Below, one piece after another: positions 41,831-46,518 of a stretch of DNA of 64,000 nt. The first letter of the stretch is position 1. The number at the start of each line of letters is the position of its first letter. The DNA lies in NCBI RefSeq assembly GCF_014876775.1, contig NZ_CP062310.1:620001-684000 (forward strand). Reading direction: 5' to 3'. The notes under the pieces are model-generated. The model had not been told where the DNA came from and did not search any database. It was given only the letters and a program-made list of their open reading frames with translations. This DNA comes from Infirmifilum lucidum (GTDB taxonomy: Archaea > Thermoproteota > Thermoprotei > Thermofilales > Thermofilaceae). Position numbers and translations under genes: made by a program.

Positions 41831-41842
41831 TTGTCTCTCTTG

Positions 41843-42520
41843 ATGAAGGAGATTTACCGCAAGATAGTCCATTTGGGTTTGAGCTCTCTCCTTATATGCC
41901 CGTTCATCCTCCACCTCCCCGAACCCCTAGATATCCGCGTCTACTACTCTCTTGGGCTCTTAGCGGCAGCCCTTATCAATAGTGCAGTTGTGAGGAGATC
42001 TAAGCTTAGGGTAGAGCTTGAGAACTTTTCGAGTGAGCTACACAAGTTCGTCGACAGTTTTGGAGAGAAGACAAGGATGCCTCTCGCAGTGATTGAAGAG
42101 GCTATAGACGAGTTCCACGGCTTTATCGAGAGGCAGCTTTCGTTACTTGAGAGAGATTACGAGAAAAGAGAGGGATATGTCGGCCTACTGTACGGGATGA
42201 TAGGCGCAGTCATAAGCCTCCTCGTGGATCCCTGCCACACCTTCTACGGTATCACGGCTCTCGCTGTAGTCGACACTGTAGCGTCGATCTCTAGTATGGC
42301 AATATGGCATAGGGGTAAGAGCCTGGGAGGGGAGGCTGTGGCTTTCCTCGTATATGCCTCTCTACTCGTTGTTAGCGGTAGCAGTGCCCTACAGGCCATA
42401 GTAGTGTCGCTTCTTGCGGTAGTGTCGGAATACTTCTCACCGGAAGATAACCTGACAGTCCCGGTTGTCGCAACCACTACTGCTATGTTGCTGGGCGCGC
42501 CCCCGCACTGCCCGCTCTAA
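41843..42520 (+). CDS. dolichol/polyprenol kinase-like membrane protein
   Basis: A 225-residue membrane protein starting 'MKEIYRKIVHLGLSSLL', the N-terminal hallmark of the SEC59/phytol-kinase family, which phosphorylates polyprenols or diacylglycerol with CTP. A central soluble helical insert (about residues 50-110) is unusual. The C-terminal helices contain 'ALAVVDTVASISSMAIWHRG' with Asp in the place of the family's D-x-x-A-x-x-x-G and 'KSLGGEAVAFLVYASLLV'. A TTG at 41831 is possible instead of ATG 41843. Its 3' end overlaps the convergent gene's stop by 4 nt. Confidence 0.65.
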   Translation: MKEIYRKIVHLGLSSLLICPFILHLPEPLDIRVYYSLGLLAAALINSAVVRRSKLRVELENFSSELHKFVDSFGEKTRMPLAVIEEAIDEFHGFIERQLSLLERDYEKREGYVGLLYGMIGAVISLLVDPCHTFYGITALAVVDTVASISSMAIWHRGKSLGGEAVAFLVYASLLVVSGSSALQAIVVSLLAVVSEYFSPEDNLTVPVVATTTAMLLGAPPHCPL

Positions 42521-45126
42521 AAAGTTGTTTCTCCCAGTACTTCGTCCGCTAGCCTTAAGGCTTGAGTGTTATCGCTACGTAGGCTACTACTGAGAGGACG
42601 AATATTGCCAGTATAAGGGCTGAGACCAGCCTCTTTCTCCTGTCTCTTCTCGCCGGCATTCCCACCACCCGCTATAATCGATAGTACAAGGAGAAAAAGA
42701 CCTGTAATTATTAAGGTTTCCGGCGCCACGACTCTGCCAGCGGTTAAAATAGAGGGCAGGCCGGTAGAGTTGAGTAGAGAGGCGTACTTGTTCTGAGCCT
42801 CTTCAAGCTCTTTCTTCGCCCCTATGCCTACGAGAACTAGGCTCCCGTCCTTGATTACAAGGACTGTGGGGAAGGAGGTCGCGTTCACTTGGCTTGCTAT
42901 CCTTACATCATCGTATCCAATAGGCCAGGTTATGTTGTTATCTAGCGAGTATCTCTTAAGTATATCGGGCGTATCAGTTTGCGAAACAGTTATGGACACA
43001 ACGACTGTATCGTTCCTCTCTGAGAGCCTCTTCAGGAGAGGTATAAGGTACTTGCAGCCCGTGCACTGTGTATAGAACAACTCTATTACGAGGATCTTGT
43101 TCCAGGAAGCCTCGGCGAGGTCTAGTTGCTGTCCATTGTAGAGAGTTATGCTCCCTAGACTCACGCTCTTGCTCACCCTCCTGGAAACTAGTGTCTCGTT
43201 GCCTATGCGTGCAAGGATTTCGGCCAAGTGCGCCTCCTCGCCCGTTTTGATAAGGCTACACTCCACGCGTACTACGAGATTGTCTAGCCCTGTGCGCCAC
43301 ACAATTGTAGACGCATTCAGCCGACACGTATAGTTCCCCGGTGTTTCCACAATGGACATTTGGTAGCTACCGGCTTCCAGCTTTACTGTTTTAACCAGCC
43401 CCTGCTCGACACCAACAACAACAGGTGAACTAGGGGAGTCTATTCTAGAAATCTTTACCTTGAGGGAGGTCTCTCTAGGAGAAAGCAGCGTTAAGTTGAA
43501 GGTTTCCCGTTTCAGCGTTACAGTCAGGTTTCTGTTTTGTTCGAGGGAGAAGTTGAGGGACTGAGAAATGTATAGGGGTGCCTGCACTCTCAGCGAGTAA
43601 TTCCCCTTTAGGAGGTCTATTGAGACTTCTCCAGACGCAGGTGTTGTTAGCTCATAAGCCTCTGATCCGCTAATACTTACTCTAGCTCCAGGTATAGGTT
43701 CCCCCCTTTCGCCTACAACCCTAACAACAAGCAGGAACCTTTTAGGCCGCTCTCTATCCATCCTGGTCTCAAATACTATTGTCGGCTGGTTAACCGTTAG
43801 CGAGAACTTGTTCTCGGAGTACCCTTGCTTGAGCACCTCAACGGTGTAATTGCCAGGCGGGACTATTAGCTTTGCCCATCCTGTAGAGTTTGTCAAAGTG
43901 CTGTAGCTACTGCCCCCAGATACTATGTTCACGTTTGCGTCACTGATTTGTGCACCGTCTCGGTCTACAACCCTAATATATACGGTGGATCTAGCCAGCG
44001 GGTAAAGGAAGACTAAATAGTTATTCCCGTACTTCGCTATGAACAGTTGCTCTGAGTTCCTGCTCTCGACAGGATCCCACGAGAGACTGGGCCAGTCTAT
44101 CTGGTATCTGCCTATAAGTACTGGCGGGTTTCTATAGTCTGTGGCGTAGAGGAGCACGTCACTTACGGTAAATATCGCTATTAGGTTCTGCGAGAAAACT
44201 CTCACGCTACGTTTGGTAGGGATCGAGAAGAAGTTTGTACAGCGGAGAGAGGCATCACAGAGGCTTGTAGTACCGTCCCAGAATACTACTACGAAGTTGC
44301 TACCGAGCGGAACAATCTGGGCTATAGGTTGCATTCCCCTATCTGCGAGAATTCTAAGATCCGGCAGTGACAGAACGAAGGTTTCATGTTGCCCACCATC
44401 ATCCTTAACCCGTTGCGCTACTACATACCCTGCTCCCACGGCTTTTGTTGTCAGGCCTGTCTGCAGAGAAGCCACTTTGACTACGCCGCTGGCTGTAACG
44501 CTGTAAACTTCGATTTTGTTGTCTGTGAGTTGGCACAACTCGCAGAGAGTATCTATCGTCTCTACTACGAGGTATCTCTGGTAGAAATCTAGGGAGAATA
44601 TTTTGCACAGGACGTCGTTAGAGTTCACGTCTCTCTCGAAAACCCTATTCCTCCTGGAGAGATCTATAACCACGAGCCTATCGAGTTTTGCGCTCTTCAC
44701 TGTGTAGACGATGTCTAGGGCGAGAAACCTTCCATCTTGGCTTAAGGACGCGCGGGATACGTAGACTTCATCGCTTTTCGCTATAGCGGAGAGCGAGTAC
44801 AGGGGTTCTAAAGTGGATGAGTTTATGACAATAACTGTACCTGAAGAGTCTACTATTACTAGCGTAGATGCATTATAGAACATTCCAACAACGTCTAGCC
44901 CTATAGGTTTTATCACCCTGGAAATGGTGCTCCCAGCGTTGAAATCTATTAAAGCCAGCGAGCCGTTAGAGAAGCTTATATAGGCTTTACTCCCAGCTGG
45001 CAGGAATGCTTCCACAGGTGCCCCGAAAGACCTTATCTCATAGCTATATACCGGTGTAGAGAACATATGCTGAGCAACGTACAATGCTGCTAGCAGGAGT
45101 AGCACTAGGATTACTTGCCTTACCAT
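42517..45126 (-). CDS. membrane-anchored propeller-thioredoxin protein
   Basis: An 869-residue extracytoplasmic protein. Order of parts: signal anchor ('VILVLLLLAALYVAQHMF'); a propeller-like beta-rich domain with 'IDTLCELCQLTDNKI', C195 and C198; three PEGA or carboxypeptidase-regulatory-like repeats ('GAQISDANVNIVSGGSSYST', 'YTVEVLKQGY', 'GEPIPGARVSISGSEAYELT'); a thioredoxin-like domain 'IELFYTQCTGCKYLIPLL' (C688, C691); and a membrane helix ('LIITGLFLLVLSIIAGGG'). The last 45 residues look non-biological and overlap a different-frame small ORF, so a frameshift or true overlap is possible. Paralogue of 26725-29487, without the DsbD-like part. Confidence 0.8.
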   Translation of the reverse strand: MVRQVILVLLLLAALYVAQHMFSTPVYSYEIRSFGAPVEAFLPAGSKAYISFSNGSLALIDFNAGSTISRVIKPIGLDVVGMFYNASTLVIVDSSGTVIVINSSTLEPLYSLSAIAKSDEVYVSRASLSQDGRFLALDIVYTVKSAKLDRLVVIDLSRRNRVFERDVNSNDVLCKIFSLDFYQRYLVVETIDTLCELCQLTDNKIEVYSVTASGVVKVASLQTGLTTKAVGAGYVVAQRVKDDGGQHETFVLSLPDLRILADRGMQPIAQIVPLGSNFVVVFWDGTTSLCDASLRCTNFFSIPTKRSVRVFSQNLIAIFTVSDVLLYATDYRNPPVLIGRYQIDWPSLSWDPVESRNSEQLFIAKYGNNYLVFLYPLARSTVYIRVVDRDGAQISDANVNIVSGGSSYSTLTNSTGWAKLIVPPGNYTVEVLKQGYSENKFSLTVNQPTIVFETRMDRERPKRFLLVVRVVGERGEPIPGARVSISGSEAYELTTPASGEVSIDLLKGNYSLRVQAPLYISQSLNFSLEQNRNLTVTLKRETFNLTLLSPRETSLKVKISRIDSPSSPVVVGVEQGLVKTVKLEAGSYQMSIVETPGNYTCRLNASTIVWRTGLDNLVVRVECSLIKTGEEAHLAEILARIGNETLVSRRVSKSVSLGSITLYNGQQLDLAEASWNKILVIELFYTQCTGCKYLIPLLKRLSERNDTVVVSITVSQTDTPDILKRYSLDNNITWPIGYDDVRIASQVNATSFPTVLVIKDGSLVLVGIGAKKELEEAQNKYASLLNSTGLPSILTAGRVVAPETLIITGLFLLVLSIIAGGGNAGEKRQEKEAGLSPYTGNIRPLSSSLRSDNTQALRLADEVLGETTF
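42555..42659 (-). CDS. candidate 34-aa single-TM protein overlapping the thioredoxin gene
   Basis: In the frame shifted from the thioredoxin protein's tail, an ATG at 42659 opens a 34-codon ORF ending TAA. Its protein has a basic start 'MPARRDRRKRLV' and one hydrophobic helix 'SALILAIFVLSVVAYVAI'. GGTGGTGGG lies just upstream as a possible ribosome-binding site. This looks more like a real membrane segment than the main frame does here. Either it is a tiny gene, or a frameshift (real or sequencing) would join it to the thioredoxin protein as a second membrane helix. Confidence 0.45.
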   Translation of the reverse strand: MPARRDRRKRLVSALILAIFVLSVVAYVAITLKP

Positions 45127-45127
45127 A

Positions 45128-45568
45128 CTACTCGGTCTCCTTCAAGAGTATCCTAACAGGTATCCCATTTAATGTCTGAACGACAATAGATATACCTGTT
45201 AGCTCCTCTCCGGACGACAGGGAGCTTCCCAGCTTGTATAGAATCTCTCTCACGCGGGATAGGGCCTCAAGCGACTCCCTCTGAGACTCTATCGTCTCCT
45301 CCAGCACGTTCAACTCGTCAACGGCTCTCGCGTTGACGACGACTTTTAGCCCCATATAGTCGATTTCGTTGAGCGAGGAGAGCTTCTCGCCCAGTAAGTC
45401 TTCGAGAACTCTCTCCAGCGCTTTCATACGCTCAGCTCTCACACGCACGGCTTCATACCGCTGCTCGAGTTGCTGGAGAGTGCCCTGGATGGTTGCTATC
45501 TCGGCTTCAATGTACCTCAGTAATTCATCAAAGCTATTAAACTGGTAAATGTTGTAGGACACGGCCAC
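45128..45568 (-). CDS. coiled-coil protein upstream of the thioredoxin protein
   Basis: A 146-residue protein without a signal peptide. It is mostly helical, with a coiled coil over about residues 15-60 ('ATIQGTLQQLEQRYEAVRVR') and another at 90-120, and a short beta-rich end 'GISIVVQTLNGIPVRILL'. No family is recognised. The GTG start is used, preceded by an A/T-rich element centred about 22 nt upstream. It ends 1 nt before the propeller-thioredoxin gene, so both are probably translated together. Confidence 0.65.
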   Translation of the reverse strand: MAVSYNIYQFNSFDELLRYIEAEIATIQGTLQQLEQRYEAVRVRAERMKALERVLEDLLGEKLSSLNEIDYMGLKVVVNARAVDELNVLEETIESQRESLEALSRVREILYKLGSSLSSGEELTGISIVVQTLNGIPVRILLKETE

Positions 45569-45732: not shown

Positions 45733-46518
45733 CTACTTCCCAAATCTTCTGTGCCTGGACTGGTATACCCTTATAGCGCGGAGTAGGTCTATCTTCCTGA
45801 AATCTGGCCAGTATACATCGAGAAAAACAAGTTCCGAGTAAGCTATCTGCCACAACAGGAAGTTACTTATCCTTTCCTCGCCACTTGTCCTGATAACAAG
45901 GTCTGGGTCTGGGTAAGGCTGGTCGCCCGTGTACAGGTACCTCTGGAATACTTCTTCGTCCACGTCTTCCTCTGATAGCTTGCCAGTTTTTACGTCCTTT
46001 ATGAGTTGTCTCACGGCTTCAACTATCTCTCTGCGTCCGCCGTAGGCCACGGCGATGTTGAGGAACCTGTCGGAGAATCTGGATGTGTAGTTTTCCAGCT
46101 CTTTAATCTTGGACACTATAGTTTCAGGAAGCAGGCTCAAGTCTCCTATGAATTTCACGCGGACTCGCCGCTTCTCGAGCTCTCTGGAGGATTTTAGCTG
46201 CTTGATTTTCTCCTCGAGTAGACTCAGGATTTCTTCTACCTCACTCCTACTCCTCCTCTGTAGATTTTCTGTTGACAGAACGTAGAGGGTCACTGTCTTA
46301 ACCCCCAAGTCATAGCACCATTTCAGCACTTCTTCGGCTCTCTCAGCCCCGTAGCGGTGCCCTAGCCACGGTGGTAGCCCTCTGTAGGTAGCCCATCTCC
46401 TATTGCCATCGAGTATGAACGCTACGTGATTTGGAATATTTCCACTCTTGACCTCTCTCTCAAGTAAGCGCTCATAGATCTTGTAGACTCCGAGTGCCCT
46501 TACAAGAGACCGCCACAC
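45733..46518 (-). CDS. uppS: cis-prenyltransferase (undecaprenyl/dehydrodolichyl diphosphate synthase family)
   Basis: Adds isoprene units in cis to make the long polyprenyl diphosphate used as glycan carrier for N-glycosylation. The 261-residue enzyme has the five family regions: 'HVAFILDGNRRWATYRGLPP' (catalytic Asp), 'GHRYGAERAEEVLKWC', 'YVLSTENLQRRS', 'NIAVAYGGRREIVEAVRQLI' and 'PDPDLVIRTSGEERISNFLL' with 'AYSELVFLDVYWPDF'. Divergent from deoC. Gap of 47 nt between the starts. Confidence 0.93.
   Translation of the reverse strand: MWRSLVRALGVYKIYERLLEREVKSGNIPNHVAFILDGNRRWATYRGLPPWLGHRYGAERAEEVLKWCYDLGVKTVTLYVLSTENLQRRSRSEVEEILSLLEEKIKQLKSSRELEKRRVRVKFIGDLSLLPETIVSKIKELENYTSRFSDRFLNIAVAYGGRREIVEAVRQLIKDVKTGKLSEEDVDEEVFQRYLYTGDQPYPDPDLVIRTSGEERISNFLLWQIAYSELVFLDVYWPDFRKIDLLRAIRVYQSRHRRFGK

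Follow-up and report, generated by a model that had tools for sequence, protein, structure and literature searches.

A 64,000-nucleotide stretch of the Infirmifilum lucidum genome (a single contig of 1,625,846 bases), here called the window, contains a gene for a thioredoxin-like membrane protein whose 3' end can also be read, one frame over, as a very small membrane protein. Is this inner frame a gene, an anchor that frameshifting adds to the thioredoxin-like protein, or an accident of the code, and if it is a gene, which of the two frames came first? The features that raise the question are these:

42555-42659, minus strand: proposed tiny gene, read from an ATG in another frame of the thioredoxin-like gene, for a membrane protein of 34 residues and a single span.
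42660-42671, minus strand: GGTGGTGGGA-type Shine-Dalgarno region of the tiny gene, complementary to the 16S rRNA 3' end of the same genome.
42517-45126, minus strand: thioredoxin-like membrane protein of 869 aa, described from a Pfam scan, a 7-row alignment and a structure model.
42517-42660, minus strand: C-terminal tail of the thioredoxin-like frame, covering the tiny gene and 38 nt past its stop.

The inner frame translates as MPARRDRRKRLVSALILAIFVLSVVAYVAITLKP*, 34 intact codons with a basic start and one membrane helix, and GGTGGTGGGA lies immediately 5' of its ATG, just as a first-pass annotation had described a 34-residue membrane ORF over the end of the thioredoxin gene. An alternative GTG three codons upstream would give a 37-residue protein; start sites in this and all other loci were assigned from sequence. 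The 16S rRNA end was located by an Rfam search, a pattern search giving inexact matches only; because it reads ...GGATCACCTCCT, GGTG(AT) is a good match to it. We predict that the tiny gene is translated and that the N-terminus of its product lies inside the cell.

The enclosing protein consists of an N-terminal hydrophobic segment, a beta-rich part, CarboxypepD_reg-type domains that score above the Pfam cut-off, and a C-terminal hydrophobic helix. Its thioredoxin match falls below the cut-off (20.6 versus 23.5 bits), and its CTGC (CxxC) motif is invariant in the 7-row alignment. Behind the C-terminal hydrophobic stretch, the final 47 codons are polar. The first-pass annotation had called this tail low-quality; a polar tail is what the code itself leads us to expect when a basic-plus-hydrophobic peptide is read one base off, since NTN codons would then become mostly S/T/P/D/N/Y/H/G, and AAR/AGR codons mostly E/K/Q. 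In an AlphaFold model, residues 821-869 have a pLDDT of 23-30, which says little about the tail because the model was built from few sequences (5 rows, mean 65) and gives low scores to the helix before it as well (27-40).

When the 34-residue protein was searched against 61 genomes, it was found in all six remaining members of the genus (E 7.1e-11 to 1.4e-3) and in both genomes of the sister genus g3 (E 1.8e-3 and 4.5e-3), while the next matches, several of them within long frames, had E 0.033 or worse. In all eight genomes the tiny ORF lies out of frame in the tail of a thioredoxin homologue. A tenth locus carrying the same gene pair is contig QNBI01000129.1 (L184); it is filed as a Spirochaetes MAG despite its Thermofilum-type genes, probably through a binning error. 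A start codon stands at the corresponding place in 10/10 loci (ATG in four, GTG in four, TTG in two), and GGTG precedes it in every locus except L184, which has no clear site. The overlap measures 95-117 nt: in three loci (G001, G006 and L184) the thioredoxin frame terminates 7 nt short of the tiny stop, and in the other seven 32-56 nt beyond it. With an identical layout in ten loci, a sequencing indel is very unlikely.

Within the overlap, position 3 of the main frame is position 2 of the small frame, so the two readings predict opposite substitution patterns. In four gapless pairs (G000 with G005, G001 and G006; G005 with G001), main-frame position 3 differs at 0.12-0.15 of overlap sites versus 0.62-0.68 upstream, and in a fifth, G013-G008, at 0.00 versus 0.67. 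The shift of differences from position 3 to position 1 reaches Fisher p < 0.05 in 33 of 45 pairs, a count to be read with the alignment of the overlap on the tiny protein, which favours the tiny frame in gapped pairs; the 12 pairs without significance include seven of the nine with G003 and the near-identical G001-G006. For the five gapless pairs, which are mutually non-independent, pN/pS is 0.29, 0.30, 0.34, 0.26 and 0.08 in the tiny frame and 1.70, 2.68, 2.58, 2.34 and undefined (pS 0) in the main frame. Homologues keep the small protein (65-95% identity in these pairs) far better than the main-frame tail (22-75%), the opposite of tail conservation with loss of the small ORF, which the first-pass annotation had named as the outcome that would refute its proposal. 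Fourfold sites of the small frame diverge about as much as upstream main-frame fourfold sites in four comparisons (10/15 versus 66/95, 8/12 versus 81/114, 7/12 versus 73/111 and 11/14 versus 71/93) and less in G013-G008 (7/15 versus 89/127), which argues that the thioredoxin reading constrains the overlap little. Judged by these substitutions, the tiny frame is under purifying selection and the thioredoxin frame in the overlap is not. The first-pass annotation raised two possibilities, and this constraint on the inner frame, together with its retained start, upholds the one in which the end of a redox gene is overlapped by a gene for a small membrane protein.

Relatives outside this group carry the tiny gene without the long overlap. 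In G017, G025 and G019, from two other families of the order, an ORF of 28-30 residues and like build stands directly behind a thioredoxin homologue, and rpS25e comes after it. Relative to the first base of the thioredoxin stop, the tiny start lies 9 nt after in G017, 5 nt before in G025 and 8 nt before in G019; in G017 the thioredoxin stop ends 6 nt before the tiny gene and is in the tiny gene's own frame. A homology profile was constructed from 10 rpS25e-linked proteins alone, none of them in the thioredoxin group, and searched against 13,864 distinct ORFs. Its 10 members ranked first, and the 10 matches below them were all thioredoxin-linked or overlapping (in order G002, G004, G003, G001, G005, G000, G019, G017, L184 and G025; E 4.4e-7 to 0.036), the first outsider followed at E 0.1, and the profile did not recover G013 or G008. 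Conversely, a profile of the overlapping members recovered G019 (8e-8), G025 (8e-6) and G017 (2e-4), with one outsider above G017 (3.5e-5) and several more among the rpS25e-linked members. Scores of this sort can be inflated by helices of similar composition; gene order provides independent support.

We surveyed the neighbourhood of rpS25e, which was found in 24 of the 27 genomes of the order (not in G007, G011 or G023) and whose position was usable in 23 (G005 excluded). A tiny ORF lies just before it in eight of the 23 (G017, G019, G025, G018, G020, G022, G024 and G026) and is absent there from 15. Eight of these 15 are of the overlap type and have their tiny gene elsewhere (G000, G001, G002, G003, G004, G006, G008 and G013); the other seven are G021 and six further members of the same family (G009, G010, G012, G014, G015 and G016), in which the thioredoxin gene is the direct neighbour of rpS25e and the tiny gene is missing, which makes the tiny gene dispensable. 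The rpS25e gene of the window's genome (G000:C1:480467-480733, L131) lies far from the tiny gene; in G000, G001, G002, G003, G004 and G006 the gene ahead of rpS25e encodes a protein whose end we take to be RadA-like.

Beyond the order, 45 of the 52 other genomes of the class with rpS25e were inspected: similar ORFs occur in G027, G033 and G036, the three genomes of family f8, an ORF in G030 is doubtful, and three further matches look unrelated. Outside the class, a hydrophobic small ORF precedes rpS25e in 4 of 53 loci spread over families, a count that proves nothing, as an antisense control also gave 4/53; two of the four (G127 and G150) are adjacent to rpS25e and similar. A phylum-scale profile search (300 genomes) returned, beyond seven known members, only weak matches (E 5e-4 or worse), mostly inside long frames, of which only G127 proved to lie just before rpS25e. 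G127 had been found by profile (E 0.0017) before that location was known, and G022 also surfaced in a profile scan across the order (E 0.02); for the other rpS25e-linked members, the position before rpS25e was the only one inspected, which makes the linkage in part an effect of ascertainment. The family occurs in Thermofilales-type archaea and, with weaker support, in a few other genomes of the phylum.

Gene order upstream ties these settings together. Two further genes of the window belong to the same run:

45128-45568, minus strand: coiled-coil-like gene, upstream in the same gene run; its homologue directly precedes the tiny gene in G018.
45733-46518, minus strand: cis-prenyltransferase of the undecaprenyl diphosphate synthase family (PF01255, E 1.3e-80).

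The run in the window thus reads cis-prenyltransferase, coiled-coil-like gene, thioredoxin-like gene and, last, the tiny gene. Elsewhere, the gene directly before the tiny gene is the coiled-coil homologue in G018 (46% identity), a prenyltransferase homologue in G026 (57% identity), and ORFs that look prenyltransferase-like by eye in G022 and G024. We infer that these varied neighbours are remnants of a single ancestral run whose last members were the tiny gene and rpS25e.

How the overlap could have arisen is visible in the relatives. The thioredoxin stop of G019, TAA, is made of the third base of an ACT codon of the tiny gene and the AA of the next lysine codon, and that of G025 of the T of an AGT codon and the following AA. 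In both genomes the next stop in the thioredoxin frame would end 7 nt before the tiny stop; this is where the frame ends in G001, G006 and L184, whereas the other seven loci continue past it. Because the thioredoxin stop consists of tiny-gene bases, third-base changes silent in the tiny gene suffice at each step. The tiny gene is probably the older partner and the thioredoxin tail the newcomer, both because relatives carry the tiny gene without the long overlap and because in two of them the thioredoxin stop is built from its bases; the first-pass annotation had not raised this order of age. We consider it very probable that the tiny ORF is a real gene and that the overlap formed by the thioredoxin frame growing over it. 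The ancestral run would have resembled uppS, coiled-coil, thioredoxin, tiny gene and rpS25e, with the tiny gene separate or overlapping by a few bases; the thioredoxin frame of Thermofilum-like genera would then have lost its stop (wobble T plus lysine AA) and run over the tiny gene, an order of steps read from layouts in relatives rather than from a tree. Translation of the tiny protein would start independently, at the Shine-Dalgarno site just behind the last helix of the thioredoxin-like protein, and would involve no frameshifting. This would fit a once-coupled gene pair whose tiny gene now depends on its own ribosome-binding site, a fit that falls short of proving a complex.

Loss of a stop codon is given in PMC10666635 as the most frequent mechanism of overlap, typically yielding a long overlap without translational coupling. 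As in the same-strand stop-loss overlaps presented there and in PMC3887535, the upstream frame here appears to have lost its stop and terminates within the next gene or past it. Unlike the pairs those accounts present, a whole gene is covered, or nearly so (95-117 nt), in 10 loci, and in two relatives the stop to be lost is part of the inner gene's own codons. The outer stop being made of inner-gene bases, a change silent in the inner gene creates the overlap; both overlap states survive in living relatives, and the path between them can be read base by base, in a cellular example. If this reading is true, it shows that a recent overlap can conceal a conserved gene family that predates it.

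The reverse order, with an old thioredoxin tail in which the tiny ORF arose by overprinting, is very unlikely: the tiny gene occurs in relatives that lack the long overlap, where it is recognised by profile, and within the overlap the five gapless pairs show no constraint on the thioredoxin frame. Its one support is composition, the acid-rich tips of the thioredoxin frame suggesting that the outer frame may carry some selected feature. Archaeal genes embedded in alternate frames of known genes are reported in PMC8665328, which cites ribosome profiling. The tiny gene resembles those cases as a coding gene within another gene's frame; it differs in being recognisable outside the overlap in relatives, and so is probably not a newcomer, and in being known from sequence comparison. 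In the titles and abstract openings surveyed on archaeal overprinting, small membrane proteins, S25e and Prli42 (few subscription papers among them), the tiny gene is not reported, and a search for literature on overlapping genes in Thermofilum found none.

The tips in question are the parts of the thioredoxin frame past the tiny gene (42517-42557 in the window and the matching places in L003 and L006-L010). Acidic residues make up 39 of their 104 residues in seven loci, versus 203 of 2,882 in three frames of nearby DNA; the binomial p of 2.4e-11 is overstated, the seven loci being related. An aromatic residue is among the last five in six of the seven (the exception is G004), and the thioredoxin tails of G017 and G025, which lack the long overlap, resemble these tips. 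The acid-rich tips are a hint that the long thioredoxin tail is made and is of some use. Openness of the main frame needs no selection, because when the tiny gene's synonymous codons are shuffled without altering its protein, the main frame stays open to the observed stop in 31-65% of shuffles in each of the 10 loci; multiplying the ten values is not a valid test, as the loci share ancestry and the position of the stop itself came from the data. Converging on this end of the gene, an ORF of 229 codons (41831-42520, plus strand), without a Pfam match and with several hydrophobic stretches by eye, overlaps the thioredoxin-like gene by 4 nt.

A programmed frameshift after the last helix of the thioredoxin-like protein, adding the tiny peptide as a second membrane anchor, is highly improbable. 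A helical hairpin would be plausible, and in the overlap type the tiny frame does begin within a few codons of the end of that helix. Several observations weigh against it: firstly, ATG, GTG or TTG stands at the tiny start in 10/10 loci; secondly, G001 and G006 have a stop in the tiny frame just three codons upstream of the start, which closes that frame; thirdly, in G017 the thioredoxin gene ends before the tiny start, at a stop in the tiny frame; and fourthly, ORFs of at least 80 codons before the tiny gene do not look thioredoxin-like by eye in ten genomes (G018, G020, G022, G024, G026, G027, G033, G036, G127 and G150). The inner frame exists as a separate gene in G017 and before rpS25e in G018, G020, G022, G024 and G026. 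Given these separate genes, the start codon in 10/10 loci and GGTG in 9/10, we set aside the first-pass suggestion of a frameshift to a second anchor.

Known families offer little by way of identity. The tiny protein of the window has no Pfam match at E <= 1 and no NCBIfam match, a PDB profile search gave no match at E <= 1, and scans of 22 family members against Pfam and NCBIfam found few, weak matches (best E 0.0055 and 0.0013, respectively). Prli42 is a miniprotein associated with the stressosome in Listeria. That the tiny protein is an archaeal member of its family, which would be compatible with an old gene covered by the thioredoxin frame, is very doubtful. The length is similar, the start is basic and L-S-T occurs in the helix, and the NCBIfam model matches 3/22 members at E <= 0.1 (best 0.0013); on rescanning 10 members, G018 scored 18.5 bits, G002 14.1 and G026 9.5. 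None of the 10, however, reaches the curated cut-off of 27.5 bits, one of 10 shuffles of G018 still scores 10.5 bits, and the window's own protein is not among the matches. In what is described of Prli42 and of the 27-residue YohP of E. coli (PMC7549839), the tiny protein is like both in its roughly 30 residues, basic N-terminus and single helix; unlike theirs, its gene is nested, and its relatives adjoin rpS25e, a prenyltransferase gene or a thioredoxin-like gene. Also considered and rejected was Sec61beta, a small archaeal single-span protein: the shared features are size and the single span, the tiny protein has no match to PF03911 (or any Pfam model, as above), and all 27 genomes of the order have a separate Sec61beta.

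That the tiny ORF is a chance hydrophobic ORF without a protein product has next to nothing in its favour, since, when synonymous codons are shuffled without altering the thioredoxin protein (20,000 shuffles for three loci, 5,000 for seven), alternative ORFs nearly as long are indeed frequent (P 0.11-0.77) but comparably hydrophobic ones are rare in each of the 10 loci (P 0 to 8e-4), and the tiny frame shows conservation and selection. Its length is unremarkable; its hydrophobicity and, above all, its conservation are not. By comparative evidence, the tiny ORF is a gene, the product of neither chance nor a frameshift.

What the protein does can be approached through its neighbours. Possibly, though we would not expect it, this is an old single-span family of about 30 residues that sits beside rpS25e in parts of Thermoproteota, was covered through silent changes in Thermofilum-like genera, and may tether a ribosomal or secretion complex to the membrane. 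A role as small subunit, stabiliser or anchor in a membrane complex is a likewise tentative suggestion. One candidate partner, suggested by the shared gene run, is the thioredoxin-like protein; proximity to rpS25e suggests another, a link to the ribosome or translocon. Neither neighbour can be an obligate partner, because the tiny gene is found with no thioredoxin gene beside it, and the thioredoxin gene with no tiny gene beside it.
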